DNA from: Verrucomicrobiia bacterium
Lineage (GTDB): Bacteria; Verrucomicrobiota; Verrucomicrobiia; Limisphaerales; JAEYXS01
Reading direction: 5' to 3'
DNA: 64,000 nt
Assembly: GCA_036405135.1 (NCBI GenBank)
Contig: DASWYF010000010.1
Location: 62,001-126,000, forward strand
This document shows positions 45,392 to 56,723 of this stretch, one piece after another. The number at the start of each line of letters is the position of its first letter. The first letter of the stretch is position 1. The position numbers were made by a program, and so were the translations under genes. The notes below the pieces were generated by a model. The model made no database searches, was not told the origin of the DNA, and saw only the letters and a list, made by a program, of their open reading frames with translations.

Positions 45392-46060
45392 ATGTCAGAC
45401 ATTTTTCCTAAATGGACCAATAAGTTGCCGCTACTCATCGTAGTGGGTGCTTCCTTGGTCGGCACGGCGGTCACCGCCGGTGTGTGGTATTACTTCACAC
45501 CGAAATACACGCGCGTCGGTTATCAGCCGAAGCAGCCGGTGGCCTTTTCACATAAGATTCACGCCGACCAGTTGGGTCTGGACTGCCGCTACTGCCATAA
45601 TGGCGTGGAGAAGTCCTGGTATTCCAATGTGCCTGCCGCAAGCACGTGCATGAACTGCCACAACCAAGTGCTGAAGGATGATCCGAAGCTGCAAGTGGTG
45701 CGTGACAGCTATAACGAGAACAAGCCTATCCCGTGGGTGCAGATCCATAAGGTGCCGGATTACGTTTATTTCAACCACTCGGTGCACGTAAATCGTGGTG
45801 TGAGTTGCGTAGAGTGCCATGGTCAAGTGAACCAGATGGAGGAGGTTTATCACTCCAAGTCGTTGAGCATGTCCTTCTGCTTGGACTGCCATCGCAATCC
45901 GGAAAAGGCGATCCGTCCGTTGGATAAGATCACTGATTTGAACTTCAAGTGGAGCGAAGACCCGAAGGTGAATGCTGAGAAGCAGAAGGCGTTCGGTCTC
46001 GAAATGGTCCACAAGATGAACGTGCAGTCGTCTCAAAGCTGCTCGACCTGCCATCGATGA
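45392..46060 (+). CDS. actA: Alternative Complex III subunit A, pentaheme cytochrome c
   Basis: This 222-residue protein has one N-terminal TM helix (LLIVVGASLVGTAVTAGVWY) and five CxxCH heme-binding motifs (CRYCH, CMNCH, CVECH, CLDCH, CSTCH, the last at the C-terminus). Five hemes c is the ActA hallmark. The protein would sit in the periplasm and receive electrons from ActB toward the periplasmic acceptor. It is the first gene of a ten-gene run in which neighbours touch or overlap, here by 4 bp with actB (ATGA). ACIII replaces the bc1 complex as quinol:electron-acceptor oxidoreductase in many Verrucomicrobia, Bacteroidetes and Chloroflexi. Confidence 0.95.
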   Translation: MSDIFPKWTNKLPLLIVVGASLVGTAVTAGVWYYFTPKYTRVGYQPKQPVAFSHKIHADQLGLDCRYCHNGVEKSWYSNVPAASTCMNCHNQVLKDDPKLQVVRDSYNENKPIPWVQIHKVPDYVYFNHSVHVNRGVSCVECHGQVNQMEEVYHSKSLSMSFCLDCHRNPEKAIRPLDKITDLNFKWSEDPKVNAEKQKAFGLEMVHKMNVQSSQSCSTCHR

Positions 46061-49000
46061 AAACAATTCCCCCTTCCCAAACGGAACCGAAGTCTGGCCA
46101 GCAATACTGGCGCAGTTTGGACCAGTTGCAGGATACTGCGGAGTTCCGTCAGTGGCTCGAGCGCGAGTTCCCTGAAGGCGCGAGCGAGTTCACGGACCCA
46201 GTTTCCCGCCGTAATTTCGTCAAGATCATGTCCGCCTCGTTCCTGCTCGCAGGCGTGGGGTTGACGGGTTGCCGTCGTCCGGAAGAGCACATCCTGCCGT
46301 TCTCGAAGATGCCGGAGGATTACGTGCACGGTGTGGCGCAGTATTACGCTTCGGCGTTCCCGACTCGTGGCACGGCCATCCCGCTGGTGGTGAAGGCGCA
46401 TGAAGGCCGCCCGGTGAAGGTGGAAGGCAACAGCCAGTTGCCTGGCAGTAAGGGTGGTACGGATCAATTCGCGCAGGCTTCCTTGCTGGATCTGTATGAT
46501 GTGGACCGCGCGAAGCGTTTCACGAAAGACGGCGCTGGCATTGATCGCAATGCAGCTCTGGATGCTTTAAGCAAGCTCGGTGCGGATGCCGTGGCGAACA
46601 AGGGTGCCGGTCTGGCGTTCCTGTTGCAGCGTAGCAGCTCACCTTCCCGCAATCGCGTGCAGAAGGCGATCGCGGCCAAGTTGACGGCGGCGAAGTGGTT
46701 CATTTACGAACCCGTTGATTTCGACATCCATCGTCAGGCGGCCTCGGCAGTGTTCGGCAAGGAAGTGAAGCCGAATTACAACCTCGGCGAAGCCAAGCGC
46801 ATCCTCTCCCTCGACGCTGATTTCATCGGCAACGAAGAGGGTGGTTATTCGCAGATTCACGGCTTTGCGAAGGGCCGCAAGACGCGCACGAACAAGGACG
46901 ACATGAACCGCCTCTATGCGGTTGAAGCGTTGTTCACGTTGACGGGTGCGAATGCGGATCACCGCTTGCGCGTTGCTTCGAGCGCCGTTCTGCCGATCGC
47001 GGCGAAGGTCGCGTTGGCGATTCTCGGCGGCAAGAGTGGTTTCAATACAGTCACCCAAGCCTTGGAGCCGATCGCGGCGCAGGCGAAGGTGGACGAGAAG
47101 TGGATCACGGAATGCGCGAAGGATCTCGTGTCCAGCGGCAAGAACAGCGTGGTGCTCGCGGGTTATCAGCAGCCGCTGGAAGTTCACCTTATCGCGCATG
47201 TGCTCAATGCCGCGCTCGGTTCGGCGGGCACGGTGGTCAGCTACCTCCCGGCGGATGAGCCGGTGCGGGGCACGATCCAAGAACTCGCTGCCGCGTTGAA
47301 CGCGGGCGAAGTCACTACCCTCGCCATCCTCGGTGGCAATCCGGTTTACAATGCTCCCGCAGATCTGAACTGGTCGGCTGCGCAAGCCAAGGCCACGACG
47401 GTCATCCGCTTGGGCTACACGGAAGACGAATCTTTCGTGAAGAAGGGCTGGCACTTGCCGCTCGCTCATTACTTGGAATCTTGGGGTGATGCCCGCACGT
47501 CCGATGGCACGTTGGTGCCCGTGCAGCCGCTCATCCAACCGTTGTTCAACGGTATCACGGAACTCGAAGTGCTCGCCCGCCTCGGTGGTTTGGCCAAGAC
47601 GAGCGCCTACGAAATCGTTCGTGAGACCTTCAATGGCCTCAGCAACGGTGGCGAGAATGCCTGGCGCAAGTTCCTGCATGACGGTTTCCTGGCGGACAGC
47701 GCAGCGAAGGCAGTTTCGGTAAGCGTGAGCCTCGGCAATACCGGTGATGCGTTGAAGAACGCGAAGGTGCTTCCGGCTCCTAGCCAGAACGCGCTCGAAG
47801 TGGTGTTCCACCGCAGCTACAGCGTGGATGATGGTCGCTTCGCGAATAACGGCTGGATGCAAGAGACGCCGAACCCGATCACGAAAGTGACTTGGGACAA
47901 CGTCGTGATCGTCAGCCCGGATACGGCCAAGGCCTTGGGTGTCGGTCGCTTCAACGACAAGAATGCGTTGGGTCTCGGCGGCTGGGTCAGCGGCGAGAAG
48001 GAAATTTCCCAGACTCCGACAGCAGAGCGCGGCAAGTTCTACAATCAAGTCGTCGATGTGACGGTTGGTGGTAAGACAGTTAGCGGTCCGATCTGGATCG
48101 TGCCGGGCATGGCGGACAACGTCATCGCTCTGGAACTCGGCTATGGCCGTCCGGACGCGGGTCGTATCGCCAAGTCCCAGAAGGCTCCGGCCGGTTTCAA
48201 TGTCTATCCGATTCGTACGACGAATGCGTTGCACATCGCTTCGGGTGCGAAACTGACGGCGAATACCACGGCTGAACCATACGAAGTGGCCTGCACACAG
48301 GAACATGGCGTGATGGAAGGCCGCTCGATCATCCGCGAGGCGAACTTGGAGCAATACAAGAAGCAGCCCGATTTCGCGAAGTTGATGAACCTGCATCCAG
48401 CTCCGGTCACTCCGGCGTTGCAGGCCAAGGGCGTGAAAGAGGCGCCTTCGATGTATCCGAATCCGCTGGATCAGTGGAAGGACAAGGCGGTCCATCAGTG
48501 GGGCATGGCCATCGACCTCAGCGCGTGCGTGGGTTGCACAGCGTGCTTGGTCGCGTGCCAGAGCGAGAACAACGTCCCGATCGTCGGCAAGGACCAAGTC
48601 CGCCGCGGTCGCGAGATGAGCTGGCTCCGTTTGGACCGTTATTTTGCCGGCGATGTGCTGAATCCGCAGATCGCCTTCCAGCCGATGCTGTGCCAGCACT
48701 GCGAGGCTGCACCGTGCGAAAACGTTTGCCCGGTGAATGCGACCGCGCACGACGAAGAAGGCCTGAACGTCATGGCCTACAACCGTTGTGTCGGTACGCG
48801 CTACTGCTCGAACAACTGCCCATATAAGGTCCGCCGCTTCAACTACCTCGACTACAACAAGCGTGGTCTGATGGATCTCGTCGGACCGCACTACCGCACG
48901 CCGATGCTGGCGGAAGTCGAAGGCGAATGGGCGATGACCCGCTGGTGGAAGAGCCCAGAAAAAGGCTGGCGTTCCGACGAAGAGTGGGAGCTGCTCAAGC

Positions 49001-49482
49001 TCGCGAAGAATCCGGATGTCAGCGTGCGTATGCGCGGCGTCATGGAGAAGTGCTCCTTCTGCGTGCAACGCATCGAAGGCGCGAAGATCGCCCAGAAGGT
49101 CAAGGCGCGTGACACGGATGCCGTGGCTGTGCCCGATGGCACCATCAAGACCGCTTGCCAACAGGCTTGCCCGGCGGATGCGATCGCGTTCGGTAACATC
49201 AAAGACCCGAACAGCGAAGTGTCCAAGTGGAAAGCTCTGGACCGCGATTACTCGGTGCTGGACTTCTTGCTCACCAAGCCCCGCACGACTTATCTGGCGC
49301 GCTTGCGCAATCCGAACCCGGCTTTGCTGGGTAAGGAAGAGAAAGATCAATATCCGGGCACCTCGCAAGAGTGGCTCAACAAACACAACAGTTTTGAACA
49401 TCACGGTCCGGCTGCTCATGGAGCGCATGGCCACGATGACCACGGCCACAAGGCCGAAGAGTCCAAGAAAGGAACGCACTAA
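46057..49482 (+). CDS. actB: Alternative Complex III subunit B, iron-sulfur/molybdopterin-like fusion
   Basis: This 1141-residue protein starts with a TAT-type region [20 protein letters not shown] (50-69) ending in LTGC, which may be lipid-modified. The next 700 residues follow the molybdopterin oxidoreductase fold without an obvious cofactor cysteine. After about residue 820 come ferredoxin-like cysteine clusters: [49 protein letters not shown] and CQQACPADA. These fit three [4Fe-4S] plus one [3Fe-4S] cluster, as in the ACIII structures. A His/Asp tail ([14 protein letters not shown]) ends it. Electrons would run from quinol through the clusters to ActA. It overlaps actA by 4 bp and actC by 1 bp. 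Confidence 0.95.
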
Positions 49483-50912
49483 TGTCAGAAGCAGCCGCGA
49501 TTCCAGCTAATTTCAAGGTCCAAGCTCCCCCCGTGGAGCTGGAGCGCGAAGAGTTAGTAACAAGGCAGCGCGACATCGGTTGGATATCCGACCGGGTCGC
49601 CTCCGTCATCGAAGGCAAAACACCCCTCTGGTGGTGGGCCATGATGGTGCCGAGCCTCATCCTCTACGGATGCTTGGGCGCGATGATCTTTTACCAGATC
49701 TCCGTCGGCGTCGGTGTGTGGGGTAACAGCCACCCGGTCATGTGGGGCTGGGACATCATCAACTTCGTGTGGTGGATCGGTATCGGTCACGCCGGTACGT
49801 TGATCTCCGCGATTCTCTTCCTGCTCCGGCAGAAGTGGCGTACTTCCATCAACCGTGCGTCCGAGGCGATGACGATCTTTGCCGTGATGTGCGCCGGTAT
49901 TTATCCGGCCTTGCACGTTGGTCGTATCTGGTTTGACTGGTTCCTGTTCCCGATTCCGAACTCGAATGACATCTGGCCGCAGTTCCGCTCGCCGCTGATG
50001 TGGGACGTGTTCGCCGTCTCGACCTACTTCACGGTCTCCGTGTTGTTCTGGTTCATGGGTTTGATTCCTGACCTCGCGGTCATGCGTGATCGTGCGAAGA
50101 CCAAGCTCCGCAAGTTCGCTTACGGCGTGTTCTCCTTCGGTTGGACGGGTTCCAACCGTCACTGGAGCAACTACGAAAAAGCGTATCTGTTGCTGGCCGG
50201 TCTCTCGACACCGCTGGTGCTTTCCGTGCACTCCATCGTGTCATTGGACTTCGCCGTCTCCCAGCTTCCGGGCTGGCACACGACGATCTTCCCGCCATAC
50301 TTCGTGGCTGGTGCCGTGTTCTCCGGCTTCGGCATGGTGCTGACGTTGCTCGTCCCGCTCCGCACATTGTGCAAGCTGGAAGACATCATCACGATGCGTC
50401 ACATCGATCTGATGTGCAAAGTCATCTTGGCGACGGGTTCCATCGTGGGTTACGCCTACATCATGGAGCTGTTCATCGCCTGGTATAGCGGCAGCCCATA
50501 TGAACGCTATGCGTTCCTGAACCGTATCTCTGGTCCTTACTACTGGGGTTACCTCTGGATGTTCCTGCCGAACGTGATCATCCCGCAATTGTTCTGGTTC
50601 AAATGGTTCCGGAGCAACTTGATGGTCATCTTCATCCTGTCACTCATCGTGAACATCGGCATGTGGTTCGAGCGTTTCGTCATCATCGTGACCTCTCTGC
50701 ACCGCGATTTCCTCCCGGCGAACTGGGGTTGGTATTCACCTACGTGGGTGGACATCCTGATGTATCTCGGCACATTCGGTCAGTTCTTTACCCTGTTCCT
50801 GCTGTTCATGCGCTTCATCCCGATGATCGCCATTGGTGAAGTGAAAGCCATAACGCCGCAGGCCGATCCGCATCACCCGCTCGGTGGTGCCAAAGTTGGA
50901 GGACATCACTAA
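49482..50912 (+). CDS. actC: Alternative Complex III subunit C, NrfD/PsrC-type membrane protein
   Basis: This 476-residue integral membrane protein of the NrfD family has about ten TM helices; [20 protein letters not shown] is the typical second-helix motif. [20 protein letters not shown] and [20 protein letters not shown] also match ActC. It is one of the two quinol-binding membrane subunits of ACIII. Start (49482) shares a base with the actB stop (TAATG) and its stop shares a base with actD. C-terminal [13 protein letters not shown] is His-rich. Strong match by topology and context. Confidence 0.95.
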
Positions 50913-51448
50913 TGTCAGCGAGCAAGCCATACGGCCTCTTGGCCGAATTTGACAAACCCGCCGATGTCATGCACGCGGCCGAATTGGTCCGCGATGCCGG
51001 TTACAAGGTCTGGGACGTGCACACGCCGTATCCCATCCACGGCATGGATGACGCCATGGGGTTGAAGAACTCCAAGGTCGGCTGGTTCTCCTTCATCGGC
51101 GGTATCACTGGTTACACCAGCGGAATGCTGCTCATCTGGTGGACGAACGCCGTGGACTACAAGATCATGATCGGCGGCAAGCCGATGTTCAGCCCGTTCG
51201 GCGCATTCCCGCCGTCCTACGAGTTGACGATTCTCTTCGGCGCATTCGGTGCGCTGTTCGGCATGCTGTTCCTGAACCGCCTGCCGCGTTTGCATCACCC
51301 GCTCCTGAAGCACGACCGCTTCAAGCTGGCGACTCATGACAAATATTTCATCGTGATCGAGACTGCCGATCCGAAGTATTCACCGAAAGAAACCCGCGAG
51401 TTGCTGGAAAAGGCCGGCAGCACACGCATCGAACTCGTGGAGGAATAA
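50912..51448 (+). CDS. actD: Alternative Complex III subunit D (DUF3341)
   Basis: This 178-residue protein has the DUF3341 signature GLLAEFDKPADVMHAAELVR, then DAGYKVWDVHTPYPIHGMDD. Two TM helices follow (FSFIGGITGYTSGMLLIWW; YELTILFGAFGALFGMLFLN), and a soluble tail ends YFIVIETADPKYSPKETREL. DUF3341 is ActD in ACIII operons, a small membrane subunit without cofactors. It is placed exactly as expected between actC and actE, with a 1-bp overlap upstream and a 3-bp gap downstream. Confidence 0.95.
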   Translation: MSASKPYGLLAEFDKPADVMHAAELVRDAGYKVWDVHTPYPIHGMDDAMGLKNSKVGWFSFIGGITGYTSGMLLIWWTNAVDYKIMIGGKPMFSPFGAFPPSYELTILFGAFGALFGMLFLNRLPRLHHPLLKHDRFKLATHDKYFIVIETADPKYSPKETRELLEKAGSTRIELVEE

Positions 51449-51451
51449 GGA

Positions 51452-52066
51452 ATGAAATACTTTTTTGGTTTTCTGGTTTTGGCCGTGGTGTCCGTCCTGC
51501 TGATCGCAGGCCGGCGCGGCGACCATTCCTCCAAGCCCCCGATTGAGGTCATCCCGGACATGGATCGCCAGCCCAAGCTGCGTCCCCAGGCCGGTAATAA
51601 TTTCTTCGGTGACGGCAAGAGTTCCCAGGTGAAGGTGGAAGGCACGATCGCCCGTGGTTCTCATTATGAGGACAACGCGGTGAACACGGGCAAGATCACC
51701 GGCACCACGAACTGGGTGGAATTGATCCCGGTGCAAGTCACGGCGCAACTCATGGCCCGCGGTCATGAACGCTATGACATCAACTGCGCCCCTTGTCACG
51801 GCAAGGTGGGCGATGGCAAAGGCATCACGACCAAGTATGCGATGGTGGCCGTGGCGAACTTCCACGACCAGCGCCTGATCGAGATGACGGATGGTGAGAT
51901 CTTCAACACCATCACTCACGGCAAGAACCTGATGGGACCGTACGGTGCGAACATCGATATCGAAGATCGCTGGGCGATCATCGCCTATCTCCGCACCTTG
52001 CAACGCAGTCGCCTCGCAACCATTGATGACGTTCCGGCAGCGGCCCGTTCATCCTTGAACAAATAA
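51452..52066 (+). CDS. actE: Alternative Complex III subunit E, monoheme cytochrome c
   Basis: This 204-residue cytochrome c has an N-terminal hydrophobic anchor (YFFGFLVLAVVSVLLIAG) and one heme site, CAPCH in YDINCAPCHGKVGDGKG. A methionine ligand candidate is in GKNLMGPYG. The PDMDRQPKLRPQAGN segment is typical of ActE. It should pass electrons between ActA and the final acceptor. Start lies 3 bp after actD and the stop 4 bp before actF. Monoheme content and length agree with ActE of other phyla. Confidence 0.92.
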   Translation: MKYFFGFLVLAVVSVLLIAGRRGDHSSKPPIEVIPDMDRQPKLRPQAGNNFFGDGKSSQVKVEGTIARGSHYEDNAVNTGKITGTTNWVELIPVQVTAQLMARGHERYDINCAPCHGKVGDGKGITTKYAMVAVANFHDQRLIEMTDGEIFNTITHGKNLMGPYGANIDIEDRWAIIAYLRTLQRSRLATIDDVPAAARSSLNK

Positions 52067-52070
52067 ATCT

Positions 52071-53333
52071 ATGGCTTCGCACACGACATCACATACCGAA
52101 GCCCCACTGGACCTGTCCAAGTGGCGCAAAGTGCCGGGCAAGCTGATCATCGCCGGTGCCATCCTGTCCTTGGTTGGCCTCGTCGCCATCTCGCCCTCCG
52201 GCGAGGAGAAGGTTTCTCTGGTCAAGCAGTTCGGCTTCTCCTACCTCACGGCTTATATCTTCTGCCTGAGCTTCGCGATCGGCGGTCTCTTGCTGACCAT
52301 CCTGCATCACCTGTTTGATGCAAGCTGGTCTGTGCCGACCCGCCGTATCACGGAAGCGTTGTCCAGTCTCTCGGTGCCGATGGCCATCGCCTTCGCGCCC
52401 ATCTTGGTTCTCTCGTTGATGGAGAGCACCACGTTGTATTCATGGATGACTCATGCTGGTGAACACAGCCATGCTGTCCATGCGAAGAGCCCGCTGATGA
52501 CCAAGGCCGGTTTCGTGATCGTGAGCTTGGTCGCGTTGGGTTCTTGGGTGCTGTTCTCCAATCGCCTCCGTTACTGGTCCTTGAAACAGGATGAGACGGG
52601 TTCCTTTGAATGCACGAAGGGGATGCGCAAGTGGGCCTGCGGCGGTGTGTGGGTGTATGCCATCACGGTGACGCTTGCCATCATCATGTGGGTGAAAGCG
52701 CTCCATGTGGAGTTCTTCTCCACGATGTTCGGTGTGCAATACTTCGCGGGCACGACTTGGGTGACCATTGGCACGACCTACCTGATTGCGCTGATCTTGA
52801 AGCGCCAAGGACCGCTGCAAGGTTTCGCCAAGGACAAGACGTTCTACTTCTTGGGCACACTGCTGTTCGCCTTCACGGTGTTCTGGGCATATGTCACGTT
52901 CTCCCAATATTTCATCATCTGGAACGCCAACGTGCCGGAAGAAACGTTCTTCTACGTCTGGCGTGAGCAGGGTTCCTGGTTCGGTCTGGGTGTGTTGCTG
53001 ATCTTCGGCCACTTCTTCATCCCGTTCCTCGCGCTCTTGCGTATCGACCTCAAGTTGAAGGTCTGGTGGATGGCACCAATCATCGCTTGGGCTTGGTTGA
53101 TGCACTACTTGGATGTGACCTTCCACATCATGCCGGTTCTCCGTCCGTTCGGCTTCATGCCGCAATTGCTGGATGTGGGCCTGCTCCTGCTGATGGTGGG
53201 TGTCTTGGTCAACTATTTCATCAAGTCGCTGAACGCGCACCCGGTGATCCCGCAGAAGGATCCGCGCATGGCCGAGGCGCTGGATATGTATGTGCCGCCT
53301 GCTTCATCCAAGCTGGCCGGTGCGAAACACTAA
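52071..53333 (+). CDS. actF: Alternative Complex III subunit F, second NrfD-like membrane subunit
   Basis: This 420-residue, about ten-TM protein is the second quinol-binding membrane subunit of ACIII. Segments such as GQTTS-free N-terminus, KQFGFSYLTAYIFCLSFAIG, LRIDLKLKVWWMAPIIAW and the YLDVTFHIMPVLRP motif match ActF. It is not a copy of ActC in sequence, though both share the NrfD fold. It closes the six-gene act set, 4 bp after actE; the next gene follows 18 bp later. The His/Met-rich end (KLAGAKH) is unremarkable. Confidence 0.93.
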   Translation: MASHTTSHTEAPLDLSKWRKVPGKLIIAGAILSLVGLVAISPSGEEKVSLVKQFGFSYLTAYIFCLSFAIGGLLLTILHHLFDASWSVPTRRITEALSSLSVPMAIAFAPILVLSLMESTTLYSWMTHAGEHSHAVHAKSPLMTKAGFVIVSLVALGSWVLFSNRLRYWSLKQDETGSFECTKGMRKWACGGVWVYAITVTLAIIMWVKALHVEFFSTMFGVQYFAGTTWVTIGTTYLIALILKRQGPLQGFAKDKTFYFLGTLLFAFTVFWAYVTFSQYFIIWNANVPEETFFYVWREQGSWFGLGVLLIFGHFFIPFLALLRIDLKLKVWWMAPIIAWAWLMHYLDVTFHIMPVLRPFGFMPQLLDVGLLLLMVGVLVNYFIKSLNAHPVIPQKDPRMAEALDMYVPPASSKLAGAKH

Positions 53334-53351: not shown

Positions 53352-53738
53352 ATGAGCAAATCATCCAGCTGCTGCGGTTGCATCAGTCCGAAATGTATCG
53401 CCTGGTTTGTCGGCATCGCCGGCACGTTCCTCATCACCTACGGTTTCGTAAAGGTGATGCAGAACTACCATAAGGCGCCTGACCTTACCGGTGCCCGTGC
53501 CACCGAGCGCGCCAAGAACCTGAAAGACTTGCGTGCCGAGGAAAACAAGGTTCTCACCGAATACGCCTGGCAGAACAAAGACAAAGGTTTTGTTCGCGTC
53601 CCTGTGACCCGTGCCATCGAACTGACCTTGGCCGAGTATCAAGATCCGAAAGCTCTTCGTGCTGAAATGATCAAGCGCGTTCACAAGTTGAACGAAGAGC
53701 CGCCCAAAGCGCCGGAAAAGCCGAGCGCTTTCGAGTAA
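53352..53738 (+). CDS. Small membrane protein of the act/cco-like operon (unrecognised)
   Basis: This 128-residue protein starts MSKSSSCCGCISPKCIAWFV, with four cysteines before and at the edge of one TM helix (IAWFVGIAGTFLITYGFVKV). A charged helical domain follows (ATERAKNLKDLRAEENKVLT) and the tail is Pro-rich. I do not recognise a family. Position between actF and the ccoN-like gene (18 bp and 20 bp gaps) says it belongs to the complex, perhaps as a small single-pass subunit or assembly factor. The cysteine cluster could bind metal, or could be a lipid or palmitoyl-like anchor; neither is shown. Confidence 0.7.
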   Translation: MSKSSSCCGCISPKCIAWFVGIAGTFLITYGFVKVMQNYHKAPDLTGARATERAKNLKDLRAEENKVLTEYAWQNKDKGFVRVPVTRAIELTLAEYQDPKALRAEMIKRVHKLNEEPPKAPEKPSAFE

Positions 53739-53758: not shown

Positions 53759-55210
53759 ATGAGTTCGGCTCCCCATACAACTGAAGCGGTCTGCACGCCT
53801 GAGGTGACTCCGGCACAGATTGATGCTTCATGCCGTGTCCCGCTGTTGCTGATTTTCGTCAGCTCGGCGGCGTGGCTGGTCATCAGTTCAATCTTGGGCC
53901 TGATCGCCTCGGTCAAGATGCACAGCCCCACGTTGCTGGCGGACTGCCGCTTCTTCACTTTCGGTCATGTGCAAGCCGCAGCGTTTAATACGCTGCTCTA
54001 CGGTTTCATCGCCCAAGCGGCGATTGGTGTCATGCTCTGGCTCATAGCCCGGTTGGGGCGCACTACACTCGTTGGCGGTGGATTCGCTGCTGTCGGTGCC
54101 ATCTTCTGGAACCTCGGGGTCACCCTCGGTCTGATCGGTATCATGATCGGTGACGGTTCTGGTTATGAATGGTTTGAGTTTCCGAAGTATGCAGCGGGAG
54201 TCTTGCTGGGTGCTTACTTCCTGATGGGGTTGGTCGGTGGCTTCACCTTCGCCAGCCGGAAGAACGAGGAGATGTATCCTTCCCAATGGTTCTTGCTGGC
54301 CGCGTTGTTCTGGTTCCCATGGACCTATGCTACAGCGGTTGCCTTGATTCATTGGTCCCCGGTTGCGGGCGTGATGCAGTCCATCGTGCACCAATGGTTT
54401 GCCCATAACTTCGTAACGGTCTGGTTGGGCAGCATCGGTATCGCCACCGCGTTCTATTTTGTTCCCAAAATTTCCGGCAAGCCGCTGGCCAGCTACAGCT
54501 ATGCACTGGTCACGTTCTGGTTCTTGCTGATCTTTGGCGGAATGGGCGGCATGCACCACGGCATGCCGGTTCCGGCATGGTTGCCTTCGCTCAGCACGGT
54601 GATGGCGTTTTTGCTCATTGGTCCGGTGCTGGCGTTCATTCTGAATTTGCAAAAGACGTTGTTCGATGGAGACGGTGGGTTACCCAAGAGCATTGTTCTT
54701 AATTTTATCATCGGCGGTTCCGTCGCTTTGTTGGCAGGCTCTTTGATGAAGGCTGTCGGCTCGATTCCTTACATCAACGACTACACCTATTTCACTTACT
54801 TCACTACGGCACAAAGCAAGTTGTTCTTGTTGGGCTTTGCCTCGTTGATCCTGCTCGGTGCGGTTTATCACATCGTCCCCCAAGTGACTGGTATGGAATG
54901 GCCTTTCGAAGGTGCGATCAAGGCTCACTTCTACCTTGCTGTGGCAGGCACCCTCTTCATCGTGGTGCCGCTGGCCATCGGTGGTGTCATGCAAGGCGGG
55001 AAACTGGCTTCGACCGCCAACTTTGGCGACGTGACCAAGGCAGCCATGATGGCCTTCCGCCCCAGCACACTAGGAGACTTGCTCTGGCTCTTCGGCAGCA
55101 TGGCGCTGTTGGCAAATATCAAACTTCTCATCTTCCGTATGGTGAAGGCGAATGTCGTCTGCTGTGTCTGCGACTCCAAGACGGCCAAGACCCGGGAGGC
55201 CACAGTATGA
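53759..55210 (+). CDS. CcoN-like (cbb3-type oxidase subunit I) protein lacking heme-ligand histidines
   Basis: This 483-residue, about twelve-TM protein is recognisable as a cbb3 oxidase subunit I by AHNFVTVWLGSIGIATAFYF, MHHGMPVPAWL and AVYHIVPQVTG. By eye alignment to remembered CcoN, the CuB histidines are present (H216, H266, H267), but three heme-iron histidines are not. The helix II site is A75 within FGHVQAAAFN, and the helix X pair is Q352 and K354 within TTAQSKLFLLG. The helix VII cross-linked Tyr position is G260. The gene is intact and codon use matches its neighbours, so decay is unlikely. It overlaps the next gene by 4 bp. Whether it binds heme at all is open; it may be a structural or copper-only relative. 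Confidence 0.85.
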   Translation: MSSAPHTTEAVCTPEVTPAQIDASCRVPLLLIFVSSAAWLVISSILGLIASVKMHSPTLLADCRFFTFGHVQAAAFNTLLYGFIAQAAIGVMLWLIARLGRTTLVGGGFAAVGAIFWNLGVTLGLIGIMIGDGSGYEWFEFPKYAAGVLLGAYFLMGLVGGFTFASRKNEEMYPSQWFLLAALFWFPWTYATAVALIHWSPVAGVMQSIVHQWFAHNFVTVWLGSIGIATAFYFVPKISGKPLASYSYALVTFWFLLIFGGMGGMHHGMPVPAWLPSLSTVMAFLLIGPVLAFILNLQKTLFDGDGGLPKSIVLNFIIGGSVALLAGSLMKAVGSIPYINDYTYFTYFTTAQSKLFLLGFASLILLGAVYHIVPQVTGMEWPFEGAIKAHFYLAVAGTLFIVVPLAIGGVMQGGKLASTANFGDVTKAAMMAFRPSTLGDLLWLFGSMALLANIKLLIFRMVKANVVCCVCDSKTAKTREATV

Positions 55211-56112
55211 ATCAAGGTCCTCTAGTTTTCCTGGGCATATTCGTGACCTTGGTCACTTCCTGGTTCGGCATGATTTTTGTGCCGCAAGCGCAGGTCGGCA
55301 ATCTCCAGCCGGTGAAGGCCGAAGTGAGCGGAGGCCTCTATCCGGCGGCGAAGTCCGGTATGGCACAACAAGGCGCGGAAGTCTATCGCCAGCAAGGTTG
55401 CTACTACTGCCATAGCCAGCAGATTCGCCAGAGCGGTGTTCATTTCGATGTCATCCTCATTAAGGCGGGTAGCAATACCAATGACCTCATCAAGGCCATT
55501 GCCAAGCACAACGGCCAGTTCGGCGAGGCTGCCTTGCGTAAACTGATCCAGGGCACACCCGTGGAAGTCCTGTCCGGTGTGACCTTGGAAGAAGCTGAGA
55601 AGCTCAATAACGAGATCGGTGCCATCAAAGTGACAGACGACAGCAATCCGCAGAGCACTTACCGCGCCGTGGCACAGGGTGCTGATTTCGACCGCGAATG
55701 GGGTGCCCGCCGCACGGTTGCTCCAGACTATCTCTTCGAACGCACACCGATGCTTGGCGAACTGCGCGTAGGCCCTGATCTGACCAATATCGGTTCGCGC
55801 CAGACCAACGCCGTTTGGCATCTCACCCATCTATACAATCCCAAGCTGGTTGCTGAAGGTTCCAAGATGCCGCCTTACAAGTTCCTGTTCGAGAAACGAA
55901 AGAAAGGTCATGTCGCATCACCGGACGCGCTGACATTGCCAGACATAGAACCTGACATGGAAGTGGTGCCGACCCAAGACTCAAAAGTTTTGGTAGCCTA
56001 TCTCCTGAGCCTGAAAACCACGACGCCAATCTTTGAGACTCCGATGCCGCCAGTGATCAAGAAGGAGCAGCCCGCGACGAATGACACGGCCAAAGCTGCA
56101 ACTGCGCCATGA
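55207..56112 (+). CDS. CcoO-like monoheme cytochrome c subunit
   Basis: This 301-residue protein has a short N-terminal TM (VFLGIFVTLVTSWFGMIFVP) and one heme site CYYCH in RQQGCYYCHSQQIRQ. EWGARRTVAPDYLFE, VGPDLTNIG and a candidate axial Met in GSKMPPYKFLFEKR match the CcoO (cbb3 subunit II) pattern. I set the start at the ATG overlapping the ccoN-like stop (ATGA); the frame is open further upstream but without signal. An insertion of roughly 80 residues between the heme site and REWGARRT is longer than in usual CcoO. It forms a coupled trio with the ccoN-like and cytochrome genes. Confidence 0.85.
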   Translation: MNQGPLVFLGIFVTLVTSWFGMIFVPQAQVGNLQPVKAEVSGGLYPAAKSGMAQQGAEVYRQQGCYYCHSQQIRQSGVHFDVILIKAGSNTNDLIKAIAKHNGQFGEAALRKLIQGTPVEVLSGVTLEEAEKLNNEIGAIKVTDDSNPQSTYRAVAQGADFDREWGARRTVAPDYLFERTPMLGELRVGPDLTNIGSRQTNAVWHLTHLYNPKLVAEGSKMPPYKFLFEKRKKGHVASPDALTLPDIEPDMEVVPTQDSKVLVAYLLSLKTTTPIFETPMPPVIKKEQPATNDTAKAATAP

Positions 56113-56723
56113 GTAATTCCAAGAACAATAAGAATGGTGGCGCTCCCGTTGAGGGACCGGAACCAACCGTCAAACACGGACACTCTCCCCTGTGGGTGTT
56201 TGTGACGGCTGGTTTGTTGCTCTACTCAGGTATGGGTTTCCTGGCCGACCGCGCCGGTGGTTTCAATAATCAAGTTTACGAGCCATATCCCTCGCTTGCT
56301 TATGTGAAACGTGCTCATCCCCCGCAAGGTGATGACCCCGTGGCCCGTGGTAAGAAAGTCTTTGAAGCCCGTGGTTGCGGTGGTTGCCATGGCGCCGAAG
56401 GTGGTGGCACACCGGGTGTTAACCCGCCCTTGGCTGGTTCTGAATGGGTGTTGGCCGAAGGCCCGAACCGACTGGTTCGCATCGTTCTCAACGGTCTTAA
56501 TGGGCCTATCACGGTCAAAGGCCAGGCCTACAACGGCCAGATGCCTGCGATGGGTGATGGCCTGACGGATCGTGAGATTGCTGATCTGCTCAGCTTCCTC
56601 CGCAAGTCATGGGGCAATAATGCCTCCGTCGTGACCGAAGCCCAAGTGAAGCCCGTCGCCTCCGAAGTCCGCGGCAAGCCGCAATGGAAGCCCGCTGATC
56701 TCCTGGCGCTGCCGGATAAATAA
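56109..56723 (+). CDS. CcoP-like membrane-anchored monoheme cytochrome c
   Basis: This 204-residue protein has an N-terminal TM helix (PLWVFVTAGLLLYSGMGFLA) and one cytochrome c domain with CGGCH in ARGCGGCHGAEGGG. A methionine ligand candidate is in GQMPAMGDGLTDREIADLLS, as in CcoP and other class I cytochromes. True CcoP has two hemes, and this protein has one. It overlaps the ccoO-like gene by 4 bp and is the last gene of the operon, followed by a terminator. It probably transfers electrons from the act complex or a soluble cytochrome to the oxidase-like pair. Confidence 0.85.
   Translation: MSNSKNNKNGGAPVEGPEPTVKHGHSPLWVFVTAGLLLYSGMGFLADRAGGFNNQVYEPYPSLAYVKRAHPPQGDDPVARGKKVFEARGCGGCHGAEGGGTPGVNPPLAGSEWVLAEGPNRLVRIVLNGLNGPITVKGQAYNGQMPAMGDGLTDREIADLLSFLRKSWGNNASVVTEAQVKPVASEVRGKPQWKPADLLALPDK

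Follow-up and report, generated by a model that had tools for sequence, protein, structure and literature searches.

The window analysed here, a stretch of 64,000 nucleotides from a Verrucomicrobiia bacterium, carries an alternative complex III (ACIII) operon in which actABCDEF is followed by a gene for a small protein, s128, and then by three genes resembling those of cbb3 oxidases: a CcoN-like gene (N), an O-like gene, and a P-like gene. The genes are listed below in operon order, with the evidence for each assignment.

45392..46060, + strand: ActA, five-heme c-type cytochrome of ACIII with five CxxCH motifs (Pfam c7/c3-type and NCBIfam QrcA-like matches; same slot in orthologous operons)
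46057..49482, + strand: ActB, molybdoenzyme-like plus Fe-S domain of ACIII (QrcC/QrcB/DsrO-like matches, TAT-variant domain)
49482..50912, + strand: ActC, NrfD-like membrane subunit (PF03916, 73 bits)
50912..51448, + strand: ActD (PF11821, 219 bits)
51452..52066, + strand: ActE, monoheme cytochrome c (PF13442; motif CAPCH)
52071..53333, + strand: ActF, second large membrane subunit (position and conservation between ActE and s128; no Pfam match)
53352..53738, + strand: s128, small protein of the ACIII/NOP operon with a single TM segment (conserved slot; no Pfam or NCBIfam match)
53759..55210, + strand: N, CcoN-like subunit without heme ligands (PF00115, TIGR00780, CcoN alignments, AF2 model)
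55207..56112, + strand: O-like, FixO/CcoO-like monoheme cytochrome c with CYYCH and the axial-Met motif GSKMPPY (PF02433, 72 bits; sequence)
56109..56723, + strand: P-like, membrane-anchored cytochrome c resembling CcoP, with a single heme motif, CGGCH (PF00034/PF13442; weak TIGR00782)

The six act genes lie in the order of an ACIII cluster, ActA to ActE being recognized by profiles and ActF by its position and conservation. Despite its lack of profile matches, s128 bears a motif, Y[AG]WxDQxKGxVRLPIxRAMEL, that is conserved across ACIII operons. Both partners of N have the c-type heme motifs of CcoO and CcoP, but the P-like protein carries one motif instead of two. In the window, s128 and N have no FixS-like ORF between them; the sole FixS match of this genome lies in a canonical ccoNO cluster, which retains all ligands, is situated on the same contig as N, and is preceded, in its own reading direction, by the FixS gene and a gene for a metal-transport ATPase (FixI-like). 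This cluster (L002) provides the second, canonical ccoN whose presence the initial annotation had considered, and an aa3-type coxA is located on another contig of the same genome.

N is an intact ORF with an ATG start that encodes 483 amino acids. Its PF00115 match, 142 bits against a cut-off of 34.8, places it in the heme-copper oxidase superfamily; its score with the ccoN model TIGR00780, 108 bits, is far below the equivalog cut-off of 583, a threshold that the tested ACIII-linked proteins of intact type do not reach either (235-254 bits). The solved CcoN chains 9g6b and 3mk7 match the protein along its length with E ~1e-29 (E-values are approximate here, as are dS values and loss counts). 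The AF2 model (pLDDT 95.5, pTM 0.93) has the 12-helix fold of C-family subunit I, and its best structural matches are CcoN chains of cbb3 oxidases (Foldseek TM 0.85-0.86; TM 0.86 for 3mk7 CcoN), on which 442-448 residues superpose with an rmsd of 1.9-2.1 A and Z of 48-50 (VIA). In the structural ranking cbb3 CcoN comes first, cNOR second, and A-type oxidases third, the NOR chains fitting less well than cbb3 (Z 42-44 vs 48-50). The heme b and b3 histidines expected of a NorB, at positions common to CcoN, are replaced by A75, Q352, and K354.

What distinguishes N from working CcoN proteins is the state of its ligand positions, which were all assigned by CcoN alignment:

53981..53983, + strand: A75, replacing H60, the heme b ligand in helix II
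54404..54406, + strand: H216, CuB ligand position H207, kept
54536..54538, + strand: G260, in place of the cross-linked Tyr Y251
54554..54559, + strand: H266-H267, CuB ligand positions H257 and H258, kept
54812..54814, + strand: Q352, replacing H347, which ligates heme b3
54818..54820, + strand: K354, replacing H349, the other ligand of heme b

In helix II, FGRLRPLHTN of CcoN corresponds to FGHVQAAAFN (H60 to A75); WWYGHN corresponds to QWFAHN (H207 to H216); in helix VII, VYIWAGPHH corresponds to FGGMGGMHH (Y251 to G260, H257/H258 to H266/H267); and in helix X, IGHVHAG corresponds to TAQSKLF (H347/H349 to Q352/K354). Alignments with solved CcoN proteins are gap-free around every ligand site, and the same assignments are obtained with the canonical CcoN encoded by the same genome. 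N has therefore lost both histidines of the low-spin heme b pair (H60, H349), as well as the heme b3 histidine (H347) and the cross-linked Tyr that the C-family has in helix VII, while it keeps the three CuB histidines, which are not conserved outside the genus of the window. The residue assignment of the initial annotation is thus confirmed in full. Its proposed refutation, that other histidines could occupy the heme sites, was pursued in the alignment and in the AF2 superposition, and none takes over: H70 aligns with the Arg of FGR, H211 lies where active members have Asn, and H371 comes after the conserved Y370, at a position where the family consensus is not His. Gap-free alignments, model superposition, and non-conservation together exclude relocated ligands. 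Two siblings from the same genus, with 70% identity, display the same ligand loss, so that a sequencing error is excluded; assembly error and pseudogene status are likewise excluded by these siblings, by open frames, and by the dN/dS values reported below.

Orthologues of N were found in ~60 of 289 genomes of the phylum, all belonging to the same class (Verrucomicrobiia) and mostly showing 31-40% identity, and in 51 of the 57 relatives sampled from the order. Wherever an orthologous locus was fully read, its operon contains ActA-F, in some cases s128, and then N, O, and P. With the addition of named public contigs, which carry the labels of Verrucomicrobia or unclassified MAGs and in one instance 'Omnitrophota', the sequence set comprised 61 intact and 93 degenerate distinct N sequences. 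Once aligned with canonical CcoN, these fall into two groups: those that keep all seven residues (HHYHHHH) and those that have lost subsets of them, which vary by lineage. Relatives in other ACIII operons thus also lack such residues, in differing subsets, a point that the initial annotation had asked about. Homologues that keep the HxH pair, which it regarded as potential counterevidence, are indeed found at this operon slot; all seven residues are retained in them, however, and they appear to represent the active ancestral state; they therefore strengthen the case for a loss. The loss is graded, as exemplified by HHCSHHH (L202) and by HNSQRYH (family f6), in which both heme b ligands are present and the b3/CuB site is gone.

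The distribution of other oxidases accompanies these two states. In two genomes that are 99 and 98% complete (G001 and G146; 1.7 and 1.3 Mb), no PF00115 protein was found other than the intact ACIII-linked N, and because of this the intact form is, judging from gene content, very likely their oxidase. All genomes with a degenerate N encode one or more additional PF00115 proteins, and an A-type coxA lies downstream of the operon at almost all of the loci read in families f3, f4, and f8; the catalytic site would seem, from these gene inventories, to have been lost only in organisms having another oxidase. Both states occur together in one draft genome (G329), which has an intact N at L132/L107 and a degenerate N, of pattern ASAARRQ, in a second ACIII operon (L138).

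How often did this loss occur? We addressed the question with a backbone tree of ActB+ActC, which is independent of N and takes as outgroup L077, an ACIII locus with canonical ccoNO beside it and no degenerate N. Assuming that ligands are not regained, ~10 loss events are needed on this tree, in which some deeper nodes are weakly supported. The clearest separate loss is that of L050, which is nested among intact members in the ActB+ActC tree as well as in that of N. In the tree of N itself most degenerate forms cluster, with weak support and long branches, and for this reason the count was not taken from it. Transfer of part of the operon would reduce the count below ~10, and the N tree allows fewer losses if such transfer happened.

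The loss of ligands goes together with the loss of a maturation gene. In intact operons, s128 and N are separated by an additional small ORF that matches FixS/CcoS (Pfam PF03597), in some intact genomes above the cut-off and in others below it, always at the operon position. By profile search, a CcoS/FixS-like gene immediately precedes N in 16 of 16 intact operons vs none of 51 degenerate ones, and a second, partly overlapping set gave 41 of 41 vs 0 of 35. Ligand state and CcoS presence are concordant in all 64 operons placed on the tree, and the independent pairs agree in eight of eight cases (sign test p = 0.0078). The CcoS profile was made from three intact operons that fit a strict motif; independent support for it comes from 18 intact genomes, where the Pfam FixS model matches at this place in the operon, in some cases below the gathering score. 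CcoN is reported to depend on CcoS for its heme b, heme b3, and CuB, and in Rhodobacter devoid of CcoS the CcoNOQP complex is still assembled, in inactive form (PMC8267372), thereby offering an experimental precedent for a cofactor-free CcoN that carries cytochrome partners.

Away from the missing ligands, much has been kept in the degenerate operons. The CxxCH motif is retained in degenerate operons by O in 50 of 50 and by P in 50 of 50 cases (37/37 and 33/33 in a second set). The axial-Met motif of O is present in most degenerate operons and absent in about a dozen, in which the heme of O may be altered. In the O-like proteins of family f3 (L051, L054, L057, L060, L065, L082), GSxMPxY is replaced by a Cys motif, for example TSxCPSY. 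For degenerate N, dN/dS ranges from 0.10 to 0.19 in pairs with unsaturated dS (0.19-0.75), while pairs of intact N show ~0.05-0.07, but at higher dS than the degenerate pairs; the P-like value for the pair L051/L057 was ignored, as it involved a mis-paired gene. Relative to ActB, degenerate N diverges ~2.6x faster than intact N (2.01 vs 0.76). Among the columns that are invariant in intact N, those within four residues of a ligand have a mean identity of 36% in degenerate N, with 2 of 28 at 80% or above, whereas those elsewhere have 62%, with 44 of 131 reaching this level. Degenerate N is therefore under relaxed but real constraint, which is concentrated outside the active site. The slot of s128 is occupied, in families f3 and f10 (L051, L054, L057, L060, L065, L069, L221), by a protein of 250-310 residues, apparently composed of the s128 TM segment and a cytochrome c domain with one CxxCH, amounting to the gain of a heme motif where N has lost its own.

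What, then, would a CcoN-like protein without heme ligands do in an ACIII operon? The most probable explanation is that a cbb3-like (C-family) oxidase subunit has been turned, repeatedly, into a heme-free scaffold holding two c-type cytochromes on ACIII. The ancestor would have been the catalytic subunit of a C-family oxidase encoded with ACIII in ancestral Verrucomicrobiia; once the heme b and heme b3 ligands had disappeared along with the cross-linked Tyr, N could presumably no longer reduce O2, and it would have been kept as a membrane scaffold anchoring the O and P cytochromes. Electrons would then pass from menaquinol to ActC/ActB, the hemes of ActA/ActE, and those of O/P, to be delivered to an A-type oxidase or a soluble carrier, with the module of degenerate N, O, and P acting as an adaptor that lengthens the heme wire of ACIII. 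There is a precedent for the last step, since supercomplexes are known in which aa3/caa3 oxidases receive electrons straight from ACIII (PMC5928083, PMC8552683). We infer the absence of heme from ligand loss and the loss of the operon CcoS, on which grounds the initial annotation's proposal of a heme-free member of the oxidase family is upheld, even if the CcoS of the canonical cluster may insert cofactors in trans in the genome of the window. Its other proposal, a structural connection between ACIII and another acceptor, finds the most support as a function; the module is presumed to sit on ACIII, to conduct electrons, and to form part of a supercomplex.

Other explanations have to be weighed against this scaffold role. 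It is unlikely that degenerate N works as a heme-free subunit for ion translocation or quinone binding, giving ACIII a proton path or a quinone site. The membrane helices are conserved together with some polar residues (E140, K237, Q207, Q412), and in helix X many degenerate sequences of several clades have Gln instead of one or both histidines, but no conserved residues of a proton path or quinone site were identified, and the positions kept are mostly Gly, Pro, and aromatic, as packing predicts. The Gln substitutions, 34 at the b3 position and 44 at the second heme b position among the 93 sequences, may reflect chance codon neighbourhood or selection.

The copper-only variant raised by the initial annotation fares less well than its heme-free one, and we consider it quite unlikely. 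According to this explanation, H216, H266, and H267 bind copper without heme in the genus of the window, for redox or copper-handling chemistry, while the relatives are pure scaffolds. The window and both siblings do keep the three histidines at ~70% overall identity, and CcoS and a metal-transport ATPase are encoded in the canonical cbb3 cluster of the same genome. Yet none of the other sequences among the 93 degenerate ones keeps all three, the cross-linked Tyr is missing in 93 of 93, and three histidines retained by three close relatives count as one event, indistinguishable from slow decay.

Decay as such, with N a remnant kept temporarily since O and P need it for translation or assembly, is very unlikely: the acceleration relative to ActB fits it, but frames are open in the degenerate orthologues read across many families, dN/dS is low, and no degenerate operon was seen with O and P but without N, in a search that began from N. 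The initial judgement that the gene is unlikely to be dying has accordingly gained weight, with ~90 degenerate relatives open-framed in the same slot and the heme motifs of O and P kept. Equally improbable is a low-spin heme held by substitute ligands and carrying electrons, since the window N has neither heme b ligand nor a shifted histidine to replace them and CcoS is missing from the operon, although the f6 members that keep both heme b ligands indicate that heme-b-only forms may exist.

Returning to the scaffold interpretation, a comparison with known systems is instructive. N resembles the CcoN of cbb3 oxidases (3mk7, 8smr, 9g6b) in fold, in its ccoO/ccoP-like partner genes, and in the CuB histidine positions; unlike CcoN, it is devoid of heme b and b3 ligands, the cross-linked Tyr, and an operon CcoS, it is set in an ACIII operon, and its P-like partner has a single heme motif. 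It shares operon slot and gene order with the C-family oxidase reported beside ACIII in Opitutaceae and verrucomicrobial methanotrophs (PMC8498564), a description that the intact members fit. In the ACIII-aa3/caa3 supercomplexes of Flavobacterium johnsoniae and Rhodothermus marinus (PMC5928083, PMC8552683), oxidase genes likewise follow the ACIII cluster and electrons travel via c hemes without a soluble carrier; the descriptions of these systems mention no CcoNOP-like module placed between ACIII and oxidase.

In the review and the genome papers, the ACIII-linked C-family enzyme is regarded as a functional cbb3 oxidase, whereas the window N and the Methylacidiphilum members lack the heme ligands. 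In Methylacidiphilum kamchatkense Kam1, the ACIII-adjacent genes were called cbb3 oxidase and linked to high O2 affinity (PMC6688271), an assignment repeated in later papers (PMC10205796, PMC11102522). In the Kam1 genome (G152, pmoA present), the ACIII-linked N (L219) has the pattern SESSHFV and is followed by coxA, coxC-like, and coxB-like genes. Nearly all CcoN ligands are lost in the methanotroph loci (L219, L072, L084, L085, L070; patterns SESSHFV and ADAAHQT), and neither G152 nor four related methanotroph genomes yielded another ccoN. For these reasons the published assignment of a cbb3 oxidase next to ACIII in Methylacidiphilum looks wrong on the sequences at hand. One of these loci (L085, in G072) contains a ~7 kb cluster resembling the genes of N2O reductase (nos) inside the ACIII operon, between ActF and s128/N; such a nos-like cluster has been reported for M. 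caldifontis IT6 (PMC11102522). In the mostly open-access literature that we searched, no relevant paper turned up on heme-copper oxidase subunits lacking ligands, or on the ligand loss seen here, although an earlier report may exist.

In evolutionary perspective, these operons constitute a natural experiment that has been repeated: an oxidase core loses its cofactors and its maturation gene, while the subunit and its cytochrome partners stay. A structural role in the ACIII supercomplex would therefore be separable from catalysis. In genome annotation, the label ccoNOP at such loci should not count as a sign of microaerobic cbb3 respiration until the ligands have been checked.
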